DNA from: a bacterium
Lineage (GTDB): Bacteria > Patescibacteriota > Minisyncoccia > Sungbacterales > HO2-52-23
Reading direction: 5' to 3'
Assembly (NCBI GenBank): GCA_030697525.1
Contig: JAUYPW010000017.1
Location: 1 to 39,184 of the forward strand
DNA: 39,184 nt
Position 1 is the first letter of the stretch; each line of letters begins with the position of its first letter. A program made the position numbers and the translations under genes. The notes below the pieces were generated by a model that worked only from the letters and a program-made list of their open reading frames with translations, made no database searches and was not told where the DNA came from. Shown here one piece after another: positions 1 through 37,383 of this stretch.

Positions 1-155
1 CCAAATTCTCTCTTCCCTTCGGGTGAATCAATTCCCGCCCATCTTCTGCGTTACTTGTCGCTCGTGTATCTAAAGATACACTTCGCTCCTCGCGCCTTGA
101 ATCTGGGACGGGAATTGATTCACTAAATTGATGTTAGTTCGGAATCCTGGTCTCC
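1..155. repeat. 3' part of large multi-hairpin interspersed element (copy A), truncated by window start
   Basis: gaatcaattcccg...cgggaattgattc stem around cttctgcgtt..gtgtatctaaagatacac..cttcgctcctcgcgccttgaat core; shares core and ctaaattgat end with copies at 7005-7273 and 37113-37383. Confidence 0.85.
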
Positions 156-170
156 AGAAAGGAGGGGGAA

Positions 171-1127
171 ATGTTTAATAATAGATTTTCCTCGCCCAAA
201 ACAAAGGACACAGCTAATGATGCCCTGCAATTTGTTGGTAATGAGGTGGTTCTTTACCGCAAAGTCAGAAAAGATAAGGGCGGAGACGAACGGGTAGAAA
301 TTAAAAGGCTCCCCGTCTCCGCCTTATTTAAAGAACTGAAAAATACTCTGTACAATGAGAGGCTCATGGAAACTCCGCTTCTGCCCGAAGGTGTCCGTTA
401 CTTTGCCTACAAAGAAGATGTGGGTGAAGGGGTTTTGGTTCTGGAGCAGTTTCCCCAGTCAAGAACCGTAAACTGGACTGATAAAAAAAGCGGTGATGAC
501 CCCAGATATATAAGAAAAGTAAAGCTGGCTTTCCCTTTTGTAATTTTAATTTGTAAGATATCCGCCAAACTTGTGAATGAGGTAAGGGTATTTTATAGAA
601 CCTCTCCCATTAATTCTTTGGAAGACCCGCTTTTCCATACCAATCTTAGAAACACTTATCCGGATGTCTGTAAGATATGTCTCGGGATTATAAATACCGG
701 GCAAGCCTTTGGTGGAGATATTCTACCCAAACGCTCTAAGGGGAACTTAGTTGACCAAGCGGATCAGATCTTAAACAAGCTCTGGAATCGCTGCTTCAAC
801 GCCGATGTGGAAGATGAATTTGAGGAATCAAAACATCTGGATAAGAGAATTGCTTCTGTGGAGGCTTGGAGAAAAGCGACAGAAAAAGATGAGATGTTTC
901 CTTTGTCTATCCGCTGGAGAACATTCAGTAAAAATATAATAGGGGTGGTGAGAGAATTGGGTTATGGATATTTAGGACAAGAAGAGCCTCTTAATTCTTT
1001 GGCTGATTTGCTGGATATATTTTACTGTTGCGCGCCAGAAGTAAAGCCGAAGGCGCCAGTGATTCACAATTATGATGAAGGGACAATTGGTGATTATGAA
1101 ATGCAGGGAGGAGAATTTGATGGCTGA
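171..1127 (+). CDS. Prokaryotic E2-like protein (Prok-E2 family D / PRTRC protein B-like)
   Basis: SD aaaggaggggga just upstream; Cys-containing segment RNTYPDVCKICLG resembles the E2-like PNxxxxGxxCxG segment; followed by JAB, E1 and Ubl genes. Confidence 0.65.
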   Translation: MFNNRFSSPKTKDTANDALQFVGNEVVLYRKVRKDKGGDERVEIKRLPVSALFKELKNTLYNERLMETPLLPEGVRYFAYKEDVGEGVLVLEQFPQSRTVNWTDKKSGDDPRYIRKVKLAFPFVILICKISAKLVNEVRVFYRTSPINSLEDPLFHTNLRNTYPDVCKICLGIINTGQAFGGDILPKRSKGNLVDQADQILNKLWNRCFNADVEDEFEESKHLDKRIASVEAWRKATEKDEMFPLSIRWRTFSKNIIGVVRELGYGYLGQEEPLNSLADLLDIFYCCAPEVKPKAPVIHNYDEGTIGDYEMQGGEFDG

Positions 1128-1773
1128 AATAAGCTTCTATCTTAAGGATGAGGATTTTGAAAAGCCGCCGGAAGATATTTATTATCTTCTGGCGGCCAAT
1201 GGACTTTTCAAAATCACTAAAACCTTCGCCTTTACCGCCTCCACAGTTTCTTTTACCCCTCGCAAGGGAAAAGAGCTCAAAAGTCTGAAAGTGCATGAAG
1301 AGGAATTAAAACTGCATCTGCCCAAAAAAATTCCTTCCAGCATGTTTTTAGATTCTCTTGGTTTTTTTAGAGAAATTTACAGACTACACCAGAGCGAAGC
1401 CGAAGTACTGCTTTATTGGTCAGACAAAGAAAAGGAATATGTTTTAATCGTACCTGAACAAATGGCAGGAAGCATGGCGCTATCGGCAGAAGTCGGAGCA
1501 AATCCTAAAGGACTAGACCGTGTAGGCACGATGCACTCCCACGGAGATTTATGGGCTTTCCATTCCGAAATTGATGATAGAGACGAGGAACATGACGACG
1601 GATTACATATTACTTTTGGAGATGTAATGGATTTTCCTTCCATCTCCTGTTCGGTGGTTGTTGATGGAAGAAGATTCATGGTTCAGCCAAAGAATATTTT
1701 TGAACTTGAGCCGTTTAAACTACCGCTTGTGCCAAAAGCGTGGGTCAAGAAAGTTAAACCAATAAGGGGGTGA
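1120..1773 (+). CDS. JAB/JAMM (Mov34-type) metallopeptidase, putative Ubl deconjugase
   Basis: Exact HxHx7Sx2D motif (HSHGDLWAFHSEID); SD gggaggag before ATG at 1120; 8-nt overlap with upstream E2. Confidence 0.8.
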   Translation: MAEISFYLKDEDFEKPPEDIYYLLAANGLFKITKTFAFTASTVSFTPRKGKELKSLKVHEEELKLHLPKKIPSSMFLDSLGFFREIYRLHQSEAEVLLYWSDKEKEYVLIVPEQMAGSMALSAEVGANPKGLDRVGTMHSHGDLWAFHSEIDDRDEEHDDGLHITFGDVMDFPSISCSVVVDGRRFMVQPKNIFELEPFKLPLVPKAWVKKVKPIRG

Positions 1774-1779
1774 TAGGGT

Positions 1780-2673
1780 TTGTATCAAATCAAAGTTATA
1801 GGCATCGGCGGAATCGGCACAAATCTTTTATTTTTTTTACCCCGTTATCTGAACACCAAAACTCTTATTAATCATCAAGAACGATACTGCCTGTCTCTAA
1901 TTGACGGGGATAGCGTAGAACCCAAAAACCTTCAACGCCAAGCTTTTAGAGATTTTGGCCAAAAAGCGGAAGTAAAAAGTCGGGAACTTTCTGGAGAATT
2001 AAGGTTGCTGTCTATCCGGCCAGTTTGTGAGTATGTTGGCCGAGACAACATCTCTCAACTAATTGAATCCGGAGATATAGTATTCTTGTGCGTGGACAAT
2101 CACGAGACAAGAAAACTGATTTCTGATCACTGCGAAGTCCTTGAAGATGTAATACTAATTTCTGGAGGCAACGAATTAACCGATGGAAATGTTCAAACTT
2201 TTATACGGACGGGTAGTAAAAACTTAACCTATCCCATAACCAAGTTTCATCCGGAAATCCAAAACGCGACTGGAAAGACTCCCCGTGAGATGAACTGCGG
2301 AGAACTGGCGGCACGACCCGGAGGAGAACAGATTCTTGTAACCAATGTCGCTGTAGCTTCCCGAATGCTGGAAACTTTCTGGAAAGTAGAACAGGAAATG
2401 TTGGATAAAATAGGGGAAGTATATTTTGACCTAAAAGAGGGAACAACGAACACCATAGTAAGGAGTTTGAATCATGAACAAGCTGAAAAGCGGAAAGACG
2501 GTCAAACAAGAAAAGGAAGAAAAACCCAAAACAGTGCAGGACTGGAAAAGAAACAAAGCCCTGCAGGACGTCGAAAAAAAGTCCGGAATGGTGACCGCAA
2601 AGCATTGGATTCACAAACCAGTACAAAAAAAGGTCGCCGGAAAAAAAGTAAAAGATTTGCTAAAAGACCTTAA
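1780..2673 (+). CDS. ThiF/E1-like adenylyltransferase (Ubl-activating), TTG start, Lys/Arg-rich C-terminal tail
   Basis: GIGGIGTN, LIDGDSVEPKNLQRQ and CVDNHETRK motifs typical of the E1/ThiF Rossmann fold; candidate catalytic Cys in MNCGELAARPGG; SD aagggggtga. Confidence 0.85.
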   Translation: MYQIKVIGIGGIGTNLLFFLPRYLNTKTLINHQERYCLSLIDGDSVEPKNLQRQAFRDFGQKAEVKSRELSGELRLLSIRPVCEYVGRDNISQLIESGDIVFLCVDNHETRKLISDHCEVLEDVILISGGNELTDGNVQTFIRTGSKNLTYPITKFHPEIQNATGKTPREMNCGELAARPGGEQILVTNVAVASRMLETFWKVEQEMLDKIGEVYFDLKEGTTNTIVRSLNHEQAEKRKDGQTRKGRKTQNSAGLEKKQSPAGRRKKVRNGDRKALDSQTSTKKGRRKKSKRFAKRP

Positions 2674-2797
2674 AGATCTTTGGAATCTAGAAGACAATCA
2701 GATGGTTTTGGTTAATTCCGAAGAAGTTGGACTTGATCATATTTTGAAAGAAGGGGACGTGGTTGAGTTCGTGAAGAAATCTTCCCAGAAGGGATAA
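2474..2797 (+). CDS. Beta-grasp ubiquitin-like / ThiS-MoaD/PRTRC-C-like protein ending in Gly
   Basis: VLVNSEEVGLDHILKEGDVVEFVKKSSQKG resembles the ThiS/MoaD C-terminal pattern (NxE...LxxGDxVxxx...G); SD aaggag before ATG; located in an E1/E2/JAB operon. Confidence 0.75.
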   Translation: MNKLKSGKTVKQEKEEKPKTVQDWKRNKALQDVEKKSGMVTAKHWIHKPVQKKVAGKKVKDLLKDLKDLWNLEDNQMVLVNSEEVGLDHILKEGDVVEFVKKSSQKG

Positions 2798-2951: not shown

Positions 2952-3986
2952 ATGAAAATACAGAAGCCAGAATTTTTCCGCAAAAGAGAAGACATACCCA
3001 AAGGAACAGTATTAATTGATATATTTACTAAAGCCCTTAAGGAGCTTTTTTTTATAGAGAATCTTGAATTAAAAGATCATCCGGCAAAAGCAAAAAAAAC
3101 TCTAAATAAATTTTTGAGGGGTGCGCCGGAAGGTGTTTGGATATATTATCCTTGGAGAAATACCGCAGTTCATTCTTTGCCGGAAAATTTATATTTTAAG
3201 TTGCGCACGGCTCGCAACCGAAACCTGATAAATGAAACCGAGCAGGATAACTACAGAAAAATGACAGCGGGGATAGCCGGACTTTCTGTTGGATCATCCA
3301 TACTTAACTCTTTGGTAATCAGCGGCGGCCCAAAGGTGCTTAAAATAGCTGATCCTGATATTGTGGATACTTCAAACTTGAACCGCCTAAAAGCATCTTT
3401 GTATGATGTTGGCAGAAAGAAGGTGGAGGTTGCCGCTAGAGCCGTCTGGGATATTGATCCTTTCGCTGAAATAGATATCTGGGACATAAAGCTGGATGAT
3501 CGGAACTTTAGAAAATTTGTAACTGGTCCTAAAAAATTAGAGGTTTTTATAGAGCAGACGGATAATTTATTTTTTAAATTTTTTTCCCGTCTTGTTTGTA
3601 GAGAAGAAAAAATTCCGGTTGTCATGGCCACCGATTACGGAGACGGGGTTATTGTTGACATAGAGCGTTTTGATCAGGAACCTTCAAGACCCATCTTTGA
3701 CGGCAGGGTTAAGGATATAAAAAATTTCAGGGGTTTGGATAAATTAAAAAAACTAGATTCTGCAAAGTGGCTTGAATTGGCCAATAAGGTTATAGGAGCA
3801 AATGCTCCCGCAAGGTTAAAAGAATCTTTGAAAGAAGTCGGGGAAACTTTGTCGGCGGTACCTCAACTCGGCACCAGCGCGTCTATGGCCGGTTCAGCGA
3901 TTTCCTATGTTCTAAGAAGAATAGCCAGCAAACAAAAAATGCCTTCGGGGAGACATATTATCAGTCTTGAAGATTTATTTTTATAA
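2952..3986 (+). CDS. ThiF/E1-like adenylyltransferase (Rv1355c-type, the family often associated with nitroreductase)
   Basis: GIAGLSVGSS, IADPDIVDTSNLNRLK and VGRKK motifs; ORF-track start at 2856 runs through the tRNA, so ATG at 2952 preferred. Confidence 0.75.
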   Translation: MKIQKPEFFRKREDIPKGTVLIDIFTKALKELFFIENLELKDHPAKAKKTLNKFLRGAPEGVWIYYPWRNTAVHSLPENLYFKLRTARNRNLINETEQDNYRKMTAGIAGLSVGSSILNSLVISGGPKVLKIADPDIVDTSNLNRLKASLYDVGRKKVEVAARAVWDIDPFAEIDIWDIKLDDRNFRKFVTGPKKLEVFIEQTDNLFFKFFSRLVCREEKIPVVMATDYGDGVIVDIERFDQEPSRPIFDGRVKDIKNFRGLDKLKKLDSAKWLELANKVIGANAPARLKESLKEVGETLSAVPQLGTSASMAGSAISYVLRRIASKQKMPSGRHIISLEDLFL

Positions 3987-3988
3987 TT

Positions 3989-5422
3989 ATGAAGGGATTA
4001 AAAAAAGCTTTAGCTATTTTCAGGGGAGCGGCTAAAAATATAGATGCCTATAAAAATTTTATCAAGGAGCATGGTATTCGCCCAGATAAGGTAAATAACA
4101 TAGCTGATTTTAAAAAAATACCGCTCACCGACAAAAGAAATTATTTGCTGGAATATGAACTGCCGAAGCTGTTTGCCAGAGGCAAAATACCCCCAATGGC
4201 TTACGCTAGCTCCGGTTCTTCGGGCAGACCTCTTTTTTGGTTCAGGGGAGACGACGGGGAAAAGGCAGGAACAGACATACATGAGAAAATATTTAAAAAC
4301 ATATTTAATATCCATAAAAATGATTCCACGCTAGTGGTAATATGTTTTTCTATGGGAGTTTGGGTTGCTGGAAATTATACTCTTGCCTGCTGCCGCGATC
4401 TTGCCAGGCGCGGATACAATCTCACCTCCATTTCCCCGGGAACCGAAAAAGAAGATATCTTTAATACCTTAAAAGACCTAGCTCCCAAATTTAAGAATTT
4501 GATTTTAGCAGGTTACCCGCCTTTTATTATGGATATAATAAACGAATTGCCGAGACGCCGAATTACTTTAAAAAACGATATCAGAGTCCTGACAGCCGGA
4601 GATAAGTTTTCAGAAGACTGGCGCGCAACCGTTTTAAAAACTCTAAAAATAAAAAACTTTGATTATGTGATTAGCATTTATGGTTCAGCGGATGCGGGAA
4701 TTATGGGTTTTGAGACCCCTTTAAGCATCTATCTGCGCCGCCTGGCAGTAAAAAATCCGCATATCTATAAAAAACTGTTTGGGGAGTCTTCGGTATTGCC
4801 GGCGCTTGTCCAGTACAACCCCGAATATATATTTTTTGAAGAAGTTGGAGGGGAGTTTGTGCTGACCACGGAAACTTCTGCCCCTTTGGTTAGATATAAT
4901 ATTCACGACACCGGCCGCTTGTTTTCTTATGATGACATGATAAGGGTAATAAAAGACGGTGGTTTGGAAAAAGATGCGCGTGAGCAGGGATTACTTGTAT
5001 GGAAGATGCCTTTCTTGGTGGTAGAGGGTAGATCTGATGTTGCGGTAACTTTCTATGCCTTAAATATTTATCCGGAGCATATAAAAATGAGCTTGGAGGA
5101 CAAACGTATATCCAAACTTATCTCCGGAAACTATTTTATCTATAATAAAACCATAAACAAAGGAAGGGTTCAAAAATTGTGTCTTAATCTTGAGCTAGCG
5201 CCCGGAGTTGAAACCTCCCAAGAAATCCAAGTTTTAACGACAAATATCTTTGTTGAAAATTTAAAAAAGGTTAACAGTGAGTTTAGGAAACTTCATTTAA
5301 GTCTGGAATCACGAGTCATACCTACTGTTAAAATTATTCCTCATGGGTCTGGGGGATTACGCGCAAAAAATACCAAGGGATTGGTTCAAATCGGAGGCAA
5401 AAAAGCCAAATTTTTGGTATAA
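3989..5422 (+). CDS. Phenylacetate-CoA ligase (PaaK)-like adenylate-forming enzyme
   Basis: P-loop-like ASSGSSGRP, AGYPPFI, IYGSADAG and VRYNIHDTG motifs. Confidence 0.8.
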   Translation: MKGLKKALAIFRGAAKNIDAYKNFIKEHGIRPDKVNNIADFKKIPLTDKRNYLLEYELPKLFARGKIPPMAYASSGSSGRPLFWFRGDDGEKAGTDIHEKIFKNIFNIHKNDSTLVVICFSMGVWVAGNYTLACCRDLARRGYNLTSISPGTEKEDIFNTLKDLAPKFKNLILAGYPPFIMDIINELPRRRITLKNDIRVLTAGDKFSEDWRATVLKTLKIKNFDYVISIYGSADAGIMGFETPLSIYLRRLAVKNPHIYKKLFGESSVLPALVQYNPEYIFFEEVGGEFVLTTETSAPLVRYNIHDTGRLFSYDDMIRVIKDGGLEKDAREQGLLVWKMPFLVVEGRSDVAVTFYALNIYPEHIKMSLEDKRISKLISGNYFIYNKTINKGRVQKLCLNLELAPGVETSQEIQVLTTNIFVENLKKVNSEFRKLHLSLESRVIPTVKIIPHGSGGLRAKNTKGLVQIGGKKAKFLV

Positions 5423-5430
5423 TAAAAAAG

Positions 5431-7020
5431 GTGAATAAAAACGAAACCATATTATTGGGAGGAGCCAGCACTCTTACTTTGGAGGATTGTTTTAAGATTG
5501 GCAATCAATACGCAGAAGTGCATCTACACCCTAAAGCAAAGAATATGATGCTGGATTCGCATCGCGTACTCACCGATTTTTTAAAAAAACGTCTGCCGGT
5601 TTACGGCTCTAACACTCACTTCGGCAATCAGGTAAATCTTCCCGATACCTTGCTTATCAAGGACCCCGATGAATATAAAGAGGGAGTAAATAAGAGACAA
5701 CTCAACCTGATAGAATCACATAACTGCGGCTTGGGAGCAGAAGTATCGCAGGAAATAGTCAGAGTAACAATGGCTCTGCGAGCTCATTGTCTGGCACTTG
5801 GATATTCGGGTGTGCGGCCGGAAGTGGCGGAACAGCTGATAAATTTTATAAATAAAAAAATACATCCCGTTGTCCGCACTTACGGTTCGGTAGGAGCCAG
5901 TGGAGACTTAATTCCGCTTTCAGCCATTGCCTCTGCCCTTTGTGGATTAGAAACAGATGTATATTTTATGAATAAAAAAGTATCGGCACAGCAGGCGATT
6001 AAAATGGCTGAATTAGATAAGCTTAATCCGGAGGTGAGAGAAGGCCTGGCTTTGGCTAATGGGACTTCTTTTATGACCGCCATAGCAACTCTTGCGGCCT
6101 ATAAACTCCAAAGACTTTTTAACAGCATGCTGGCCTCTCTGGCTTTGTCTTTGGAAGCCCTGGAAATAATAGGAGACGCTCACCATCCTTTGGTGCATAC
6201 GCTAAAACGCCAGAAAGGCGAACAGGAAATCAATAATTTTTTTCTAAATTTCTGGAAAGGAAGTCAACTTATAAAAAAACTAGACGATATAAGAAAAGAT
6301 ATTTCTGAAAAAATTAAAAACAAAGAAATCATAGAAAAAATTCCGGGTCTTCAAGACTATTATTCATTGAGATCAGTCGCTCAAGGGTTTGGGCCATTTA
6401 AAGAAAATCTTGAGCGCGCGGTTGCTTGGATTGAAGGAGAAATAAACTCTGTTAATGACAATCCGATTATTTCTGTAAAACCTCCTAAAATTTATCATTG
6501 CGCAAATTTTATGGGATATTACGTGACTGATTCCTGCGACATTCTAAAAATGGATATTGCTCAAGCCTCCACTTGGCTGCACGCCATTTTAGCTAATTTA
6601 GTGCATCCCAGAAAAAATTCTGGTCTGCCAGCAAACTTAGTCAAACAGCCGGGGATAAACAACGGGTTCCGCCCCATTCAAATTCTAGCCGCTTCTCTCG
6701 CGGTCCAGAACCGCAAACTTGCTCAAGCGCAACAATCTTTTATGTTGCCCACCGAAGGAGATAATCAGGATGTAAATAGTCTTGGCACTCATGCCGCCCT
6801 GGATTTAAAGAAATCGGTTGATAATCTGGAATATCTGGTATCAATTTTATTACTCGCATCCGTACAGGCTCTGGAACTGCGAGGATTATCTCTTGCATCT
6901 CTTGAAGCTCGCAAGATTCATCGCGCAATAAGAAAAGTTTCTTCGTTTTTAAATTCAGATCGGTCTTTGACTGTTGATATAGAGAAGGTTGTTGTCCTTA
7001 TGAAAGAGCACGGGATATGA
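5431..7020 (+). CDS. MIO-type aromatic amino acid ammonia-lyase (HAL/PAL/TAL superfamily), GTG start
   Basis: GSVGASGDLIPLS (MIO Ala-Ser-Gly), VYGSNTHFG, VNDNPI, EGDNQDVNSLG. Confidence 0.93.
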   Translation: MNKNETILLGGASTLTLEDCFKIGNQYAEVHLHPKAKNMMLDSHRVLTDFLKKRLPVYGSNTHFGNQVNLPDTLLIKDPDEYKEGVNKRQLNLIESHNCGLGAEVSQEIVRVTMALRAHCLALGYSGVRPEVAEQLINFINKKIHPVVRTYGSVGASGDLIPLSAIASALCGLETDVYFMNKKVSAQQAIKMAELDKLNPEVREGLALANGTSFMTAIATLAAYKLQRLFNSMLASLALSLEALEIIGDAHHPLVHTLKRQKGEQEINNFFLNFWKGSQLIKKLDDIRKDISEKIKNKEIIEKIPGLQDYYSLRSVAQGFGPFKENLERAVAWIEGEINSVNDNPIISVKPPKIYHCANFMGYYVTDSCDILKMDIAQASTWLHAILANLVHPRKNSGLPANLVKQPGINNGFRPIQILAASLAVQNRKLAQAQQSFMLPTEGDNQDVNSLGTHAALDLKKSVDNLEYLVSILLLASVQALELRGLSLASLEARKIHRAIRKVSSFLNSDRSLTVDIEKVVVLMKEHGI

Positions 7021-7273
7021 ACCAGTATCAGCTTTAGAAGCTAAAAAATGAGATGATTTCGCGGCACGACAACGAAGGTGTATGTTTACATACACCAAGG
7101 AGGAGTAACAAAGAAATCAACCATTTTTTAGCTTCCCCAGAGGGCGGGACAATTTACGTCATCTTCTGCGTTTCTCGTTGCTCGTGTATCTAAAGATACA
7201 CTTCGCTCCTCACGCCTTGAATATGACGTAAATTGTCTCCGCTAAATTGATACTGGTTCGTATCTCGCGCTCT
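7005..7273. repeat. Large multi-hairpin interspersed element (copy B)
   Basis: Outer stem gagcacgggatatgaaccagtatcagctttag / ctaaattgatactggttcgtatctcgcgctc enclosing two long hairpin arms; same architecture as 37113-37383. Confidence 0.92.
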
Positions 7274-7292
7274 AAGATGGTAAGATTAAGTA

Positions 7293-8366
7293 ATGACACC
7301 GGGACGGACCATTGAAGATATTTTAAATTTGGCGGTTTGGGCTCCCTCTGGCGATAATTGCCAGCCGTGGAGGTTTGAAGTTTATGACAACAAAATAGAC
7401 ATTTTTAATGTGCCGGATAAAGACAAAGCTCTTTATAATTTTCGGCAAAGCGGTTCCATGGTAGCTCACGGAGCTCTCATTGAAAACATTTTTATAATAA
7501 CCTCCCAGTTGGGTTATGAAGTACGCCCTTCTTTTCCTCCGGCTAAAGAAAAAAATAATTTGGTAGCCAGTTTAACTCTGACTGAATCGAAACCAAAAGA
7601 AGAACCTCTCTATAACTTCATCAAGGTTAGAACCACGAACAGAAAACCTTATAAAAAACACTATCTGTCTCCGGAAATTAAAGAAAATCTCCTGAACTCC
7701 GTCATTGGCGAGGGGGGTGTTGTCCTAATAGAAGACGAGAAGCAAAAGCATTTATTGGGACGATCTTTGAGCGCCAACGAGCAAATATTATTTGAGAATG
7801 CCGCTTTGCATAAGTCTTTTTTTAGCAATGTTGTTTGGAACAAGAGGGAAGAGCAGGAAAAAAAAAGCGGTTTATATTTAAAAACTCTGGAGCTTCCGCC
7901 GCCAGCCCGATTGGCTTTTCATTTGTTTAGCAGTTGGAACTGGCTTAAATTTCTTAACAAACTCGGACTGTCCAGATCAGTAGCCAAGACAAATGCAAAA
8001 ATTTATGGCTCCTGTGCAATCATGGGAGCGATTATAACGCCAAGCGAGTCTGATGAAGATTTTATAGCCGCGGGCAGGATGATGCAAAAAATTTGGCTCA
8101 AAGCAACCGCCTCGGGACTGGGTATGCAGATAATGGCTGGGTTGCCCTATTTGGCTAGAAGAGTTTTTGCCAACCAAGCAGATATGTTATCTGACACCCA
8201 CCATCAAATGATCAGAAATCATTACAGCCAAATTGAATCCATTGTGGACGGTAAAAATAAAAATATAGTTTTGTTATTTAGAATAGGTGATGGCGGAAAT
8301 CCGAGCGCTCGGTCTTCGCGTCTGCCAGCCGAAATAAAGGTTATTAAACCCTTTGTTTTGAAATAA
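7293..8366 (+). CDS. Nitroreductase-family-like protein (Rv1355c C-terminal type)
   Basis: N-terminal ILNLAVWAPSGDNCQPWRFEV FMN-binding pattern; C-terminal GLGMQIMAGLPYLARR and IVLLFRIGDG. Confidence 0.7.
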   Translation: MTPGRTIEDILNLAVWAPSGDNCQPWRFEVYDNKIDIFNVPDKDKALYNFRQSGSMVAHGALIENIFIITSQLGYEVRPSFPPAKEKNNLVASLTLTESKPKEEPLYNFIKVRTTNRKPYKKHYLSPEIKENLLNSVIGEGGVVLIEDEKQKHLLGRSLSANEQILFENAALHKSFFSNVVWNKREEQEKKSGLYLKTLELPPPARLAFHLFSSWNWLKFLNKLGLSRSVAKTNAKIYGSCAIMGAIITPSESDEDFIAAGRMMQKIWLKATASGLGMQIMAGLPYLARRVFANQADMLSDTHHQMIRNHYSQIESIVDGKNKNIVLLFRIGDGGNPSARSSRLPAEIKVIKPFVLK

Positions 8367-37112: not shown

Positions 37113-37383
37113 AGACCGCGGGATACAAACCAGAATCAAGTTTAGAAGCTAAAAAATGAGATGATTTCGCGGCACGACGACGAAGGTGTGTCTTTAGACA
37201 CACCGAGGAGGAGTAACAAAGAAATCAACCATTTTTTAGCTTCCCCAGAGGGCGGGACAATTTTGACTATTCTTCCAGCGTTTCTCGTCGCTCGCGTATC
37301 TAAAGATACGCTTCGCTCCTCGAGCCTTGAATATAGTCAAAATTGTCTCCGCTAAATTGATACTGGTTCGTACCCCGCGGTCT
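37113..37383. repeat. Large multi-hairpin interspersed element (copy C)
   Basis: Outer stem agaccgcgggatacaaaccagaatcaagtttag / ctaaattgatactggttcgtaccccgcggtct; inner arms as in copy B with compensatory differences. Confidence 0.93.

Follow-up and report, generated by a model that had tools for sequence, protein, structure and literature searches.

The window, that is, the whole analyzed stretch of 39,184 nt (G000:C7:1-39184; contig C7 of a 746 kb genome in 36 contigs), carries three copies of a multi-hairpin sequence, A, B, and C, whose stems differ in sequence from copy to copy and nevertheless remain complementary. A sequence-only reading had offered three explanations, a mobile cruciform or MITE, a structured RNA, or arms homogenized by template switching; the sequences and coordinates it gave for the three copies were confirmed (Table 1). 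Copies B and C are 86-88% identical and have the same folding energy, -126 kcal/mol, against means of -62 and -67 for their dinucleotide shuffles. The corresponding z-scores are -13.8 and -12.4, and none of the 200 shuffles was as stable. Copy A starts at the contig start; therefore, its 5' arm is absent from the assembly. Left-half copies at other contig ends (C18, GGAGACCAGGATTCGAACTAGCGTCA; C25 and C26) have an arm nearly as predicted for the partner of copy A. None of them can be assigned to copy A: they are consistent with the predicted arm, short of proof.

Table 1. Copies of the element, their parts, and genes of the cluster beside copy A, in window coordinates
Feature	Position	Strand	Remark
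Copy A, right part only	1-155	+	end of arm 2, arm 3, and outer-stem 3' strand; cut by contig start
Copy A arm 3	24-122	-	model R1, 62.9 bits
ORF without assignment, cluster beside copy A	171-1127		
Prok-JAB protease, cluster beside copy A	1072-1773		
ThiF/E1-like, cluster beside copy A	1780-2673		
ThiS-like modifier, cluster beside copy A	2474-2797		
Copy B, complete two-arm element	7005-7273	+	outer inverted repeat plus two arms
Copy B outer stem, 5' strand	7005-7036	+	
Copy B arm 2 (left arm)	7037-7135	+	core on + strand; model R1, 110 bits
Copy B core	7068-7113	+	GACAACGAAG, small hairpin 7077-7096, AAGGAGGAGTAACAAAG; conserved across hosts
Copy B arm 3 (right arm)	7144-7242	-	same module as arm 2; model R1, 49.9 bits, E 4.8e-10
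Copy B outer stem, 3' strand	7243-7273	+	
Copy C, complete two-arm element	37113-37383	+	
Copy C arm 2	37145-37243	+	model R1, 112.8 bits
Copy C arm 3	37252-37352	-	model R1, 50.3 bits

The genes beside copy A (171-2797) read as a ubiquitin-like conjugation set. A second cluster (2952-8366) comprises a ThiF protein, an ORF without assignment, an aromatic amino acid lyase, and a nitroreductase-like protein, and copy B sits between the latter two genes. The 5' strand of its outer stem provides the lyase ORF (5431-7020) with its last codons and the TGA stop codon (7018-7020).

In the full element, an outer stem of about 26 bp encloses two hairpin arms with a short spacer between them. The covariance model R1, built from arm 2, also matches the opposite strand 8-10 nt beyond that arm, where it scores arm 3 at about 50-63 bits. 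These scores exceed the 28-43 bits given by an arm against its own complement, which means that both arms are the same module in inverted orientation. The module has a stem and, after it, a purine-rich core (GACGACGAAG..GAGGAGGAGnrACrAAG) that surrounds a small variable hairpin; this core is present in each arm, in opposite orientation in the two. As judged from its letters, the core is readable as a helix (CGACGACGA with GAGGAGGAG) in which C-G pairs and tandem G-A mismatches alternate. The same genome also has lone arms with outer stems of their own (C3, C19, and C23). Across hosts, two size classes are observed, a one-arm form of about 165 bp and a two-arm form of about 275 bp, with stem lengths of 14-26 bp.

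The distance from the start of the outer inverted repeat to the core is 62-68 nt in all hosts. When at least 17 of 20 bases were required to match, the repeat was detected at the expected distance for 94 of 124 core matches, in comparison with 0 of 218 control positions displaced by 700 nt; terminal inverted repeats, which are a criterion for MITEs, are present to this extent. From host to host the end sequences diverge, with an identity of 0.46 in the best register, whereas pairing between the two ends of a single element is 0.91, a figure raised by the detection threshold. In short, overall length and core are constant across hosts; the ends vary yet remain complementary.

Within the genome of the window, the compensatory stem changes described earlier for A, B, and C are real and extend to ten copies, two of which were put together from matching contig ends. 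Over these ten, the outer 19-bp stem is 96.3% paired, and both sides have changed at 13 of its 19 pairs, a level that did not occur in 500 shuffles. With the partner slid, the covariation score falls from 0.517 to 0.048-0.102. In nine copies, the between-copy differences of the 5' arm were compensated in 174 cases and uncompensated in 39. This genome has many end variants, each self-complementary and matched from left to right. In the relative G030 and in the genome G388, a single end sequence is common to all copies of the genome. The between-copy differences of the 5' arm in G030 are uncompensated for the most part (111 of 124, with 13 compensated), and private changes are among the uncompensated ones. 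Therefore, pairing is not maintained in every settled copy.

Constant geometry combined with changing but complementary ends, together with the covariation, suggests that the ends are probably recognized by fold and length rather than by end sequence. The single end sequence of all G030 and all G388 copies was counted against this recognition, as it is what an ordinary transposon with sequence-specific ends has.

Complementarity could instead be kept by template switching between the arms during replication (quasipalindrome correction), and not by selection on a moving element. The stem blocks of arm 3 in A, B, and C, which differ wholesale yet are complementary, would be in keeping with this. 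So would four core-deleted derivatives in G388, whose deletion points differ and lie at short repeats; these and several end-truncated derivatives are as expected, since long palindromes disturb replication. However, most of the G030 differences are uncompensated, and the unpaired core bases conserved across phyla are left unexplained. Because mismatches persist in the G030 copies, template switching, as proposed in the sequence-only reading, is unneeded as the main cause, while it may contribute. As the full explanation it seems very improbable.

Several other forms should be mentioned. Other palindromes are nested in element loops: CCTGCCTGCCGGTAGGCAGG in L004 (the C15b copy), and CCCGTTAGAAGT..ACTTCTAACGGG in the G030 copies L034 and L326. 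Six further G030 loci (L317, L322, L327, L329, L333, and L339) have lone element ends, YTA-GGGCTCTAGGACTCGAAC, followed by unrelated sequence; in L327, a 34-nt mini-hairpin is composed of two element ends only.

By DNA matching, about 20 copies were found in the genome of the window and about 15 in G030, and only 2 of 57 relatives gave matches. The covariance-model search that had been suggested for related genomes, run with the one-arm model R1, matched 72 of the 388 class genomes. In GTDB genomes, the exact core pattern was found in at least 113 stretches. Many of these are Patescibacteria, and the others include Schekmanbacteria, Planctomycetota, Omnitrophota, Myxococcales, Bdellovibrio relatives, and Acidobacteria. 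The Omnitrophota include 'Ca. Velamenicoccus archaeovorus' (NZ_CP019384), whose genome is complete; it is one of the high-copy hosts, together with Schekmanbacteria JACPHN01 and Yanofskybacteria. Most of the host genomes are metagenome bins, in which a stray contig is possible; repeated copies per genome make stray contigs unlikely as a rule. IMG/VR, phage records, and plasmids gave no match. The family picture of the sequence-only reading is correct as far as it went: the opposite orientation of the arms and the spread across phyla were absent from it.

The element is mobile, as its copies are dispersed and numerous, its distribution is patchy, and empty sites exist in relatives. This bears out the first of the three options. 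The empty sites, whose search had also been proposed, were found by joining flanks: L063 is empty in G278, and L072 and L073 are empty in the same-genus genomes G377 and G260. The junctions are not base-exact, because these relatives are only 75-87% identical. Both L072 and L073 are within 16S rRNA genes, and their insertion points read as apical loops of rRNA hairpins. L070 is about 50 nt upstream of a 16S gene; apart from the two copies inside 16S genes, the copies are located elsewhere. Three copies (L021, L025, and L065) have a tRNA gene (tRNA-Leu, tRNA-Glu) at a distance of about 10 bp or less.

No target duplication above 1-2 bp was seen at the three empty sites. Among 91 elements, duplications of 4-9 bp were no more frequent than with swapped flanks, and none of 3 bp was consistent; duplications of 1-2 bp may exist. 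The flanks show a preference for YTA before the element and TAR after it, with TA on both sides in many copies. Targeting of stop codons was considered and rejected: many ORFs end exactly at the junction, but the TAG or TAA there comes from the element itself.

These flanks, as well as the terminal inverted repeats common to all copies in G388 and in G030, could be explained by an ordinary MITE that arose from a DNA transposon by deletion. The transposase would recognize the terminal repeats, at sites that read TA or YTAR, and the palindromes and the core would be incidental. However, no duplication of 3-9 bp was consistent across copies, and no transposon-sized autonomous copy with the same ends was found in G388 or G030, the two genomes searched. 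Furthermore, the core is kept across phyla while the ends change, and the several end variants in the genome of the window are each matched from left to right. An ordinary MITE is therefore considered unlikely.

The two copies in 16S genes and the one just upstream, together with the very stable fold, might also indicate a structured RNA that serves the host, or an intervening sequence of the rRNA type, with pairing selected in the transcript. The mismatches of the outer stem bear on this. They show no strand preference in the genome of the window and G030 (15 G-U and 15 A-C), and the two-arm forms from many hosts are likewise without strand bias (48 and 46). In the one-arm forms, G-U is biased toward the core strand (24 versus 7, p = 0.003; related copies are not fully independent), which hints at folding of the core strand as a single strand. 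No Rfam family matched the window copies or ten loci with other copies at gathering thresholds. Most copies are intergenic and without orientation preference, presence among relatives is patchy, and pairing is lost in settled G030 copies. The structured-RNA option of the earlier reading is thus weak: the G-U bias of the one-arm forms points toward it, and the Rfam search and the outer-stem mismatches in the two genomes do not. It is given very little probability.

A further possibility is a REPIN-like element, mobilized as a single-stranded hairpin by a REP-associated Y1 (RAYT) transposase. It would agree with the symmetric YTAG..CTAR feet, the inverted hairpin pair, the lack of duplication, the chromosomal habit, and the core-strand G-U bias of the one-arm forms. 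The check for a REP-type transposase, which had been recommended earlier, was made with PF01797 and with a profile built from RAYT-like proteins specific to the class, and showed no association with carriers. RAYT-like genes are present in 42 of 72 carriers versus 178 of 316 non-carriers (p = 0.79), and the rates by the two profiles are 58% in carriers versus 60% and 56% in non-carriers. Moreover, G352, G253, G342, and G237 have no RAYT-like gene despite 8-10 element matches listed for each. This explanation was already disfavored and seems highly unlikely.

Other candidates for the mover or for the source of the ends were examined. No transposase family recurred in the flanking loci. The S23/IVP four-helix protein was rejected as a partner: it is encoded in 259 of 388 genomes, but the element was found at 0 of 30 S23 loci. 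On both sides of the S23/IVP genes at L287, L295, L297, L307, and L310, short degenerate repeats (e.g. TAGTTAG) stand in inverted runs; these repeats are unrelated to the element. A tRNA origin of the ends was also rejected. Their 3' strand resembles a tRNA T-loop (GTTCGAATCC), but the acceptor part occurs in none of the tRNAs of the genome, and other hosts have unrelated ends.

The element works like a REPIN or a structured MITE, yet lacks tested defining features of both. For the REPIN, the features lacking are the RAYT association and the REP tag; for the MITE, neither a duplication nor a parent transposon was found. The reading preferred here, at slightly better than even confidence, is a new family of non-autonomous, gene-less mobile palindromes, the ends of which would be found by fold and distance.

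More specifically, the element may move as a folded strand or cruciform. A putative recombinase acting in trans would bind the conserved core and locate the ends via stem pairing and a fixed distance, so that the ends would need complementarity more than a fixed sequence. Insertion would favor YTA/TAR sites, including gene ends and the loops at the tips of rRNA hairpins, positions at which a perfect hairpin might do the least harm, and settled copies would decay afterward. The most far-reaching version, in which any complementary outer stem of suitable length would do as ends and the element could thereby cross phyla, take new ends in every host, and land in rRNA hairpin loops, is rather doubtful.

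Among the closest known systems, REP and REPIN (BIME) sequences with RAYT transposases are small chromosomal palindromes, often inverted hairpin pairs, non-autonomous, situated at gene ends, and found in many phyla (PMC3733652). The present element shares all of these traits, but its nested arms are much larger, its loop holds a conserved core, its ends vary from host to host, and it has no dedicated Y1 association. REPs are further defined as hairpins of 20-40 bp with a GTAG or CGTC tag, and the element is flanked by YTA/TAR only. The CGTC-tagged REPs have 8-9 bp stems, a terminal CGTC tag, and no dedicated transposase known (PMC3733652). They resemble the element in being palindromic, cross-phylum, and without a known dedicated transposase; its stems, however, are 14-26 bp in units of 165 or 275 bp, and the conservation lies in its interior. 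MITEs and structured interspersed repeats of the ERIC, RPE, and Correia type are likewise gene-less and dispersed, with inverted terminal repeats and RNA-stable folds. The element differs from them in that no target duplication or parent transposon was found and in that one core is common to several phyla.

Intervening sequences of rRNA (IVS) and the short insertions in CPR rRNA genes, the latter left uncharacterized and without ORF or intron features (PMC11270868), are hairpin insertions atop rRNA stem-loops, and two copies of the element are of this kind. In contrast to such insertions, the element is mostly outside rRNA genes, has a defined core, and is absent beside the 30 S23/IVP genes examined. 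A further defining trait of rRNA IVS is RNase III cleavage with no ligation afterward. Some of the CPR rRNA insertions left uncharacterized in PMC11270868, which have neither ORF nor intron features, may be explained by the element.

These palindromes form a folded mobile family that crosses phyla and has no Rfam match, and no description of such a nested-hairpin family was found in the literature searched, the coverage of which was incomplete. The core-binding protein, once found, would directly test transposition that recognizes ends by structure rather than by sequence. It would also show who supplies the mover in hosts with very small genomes.
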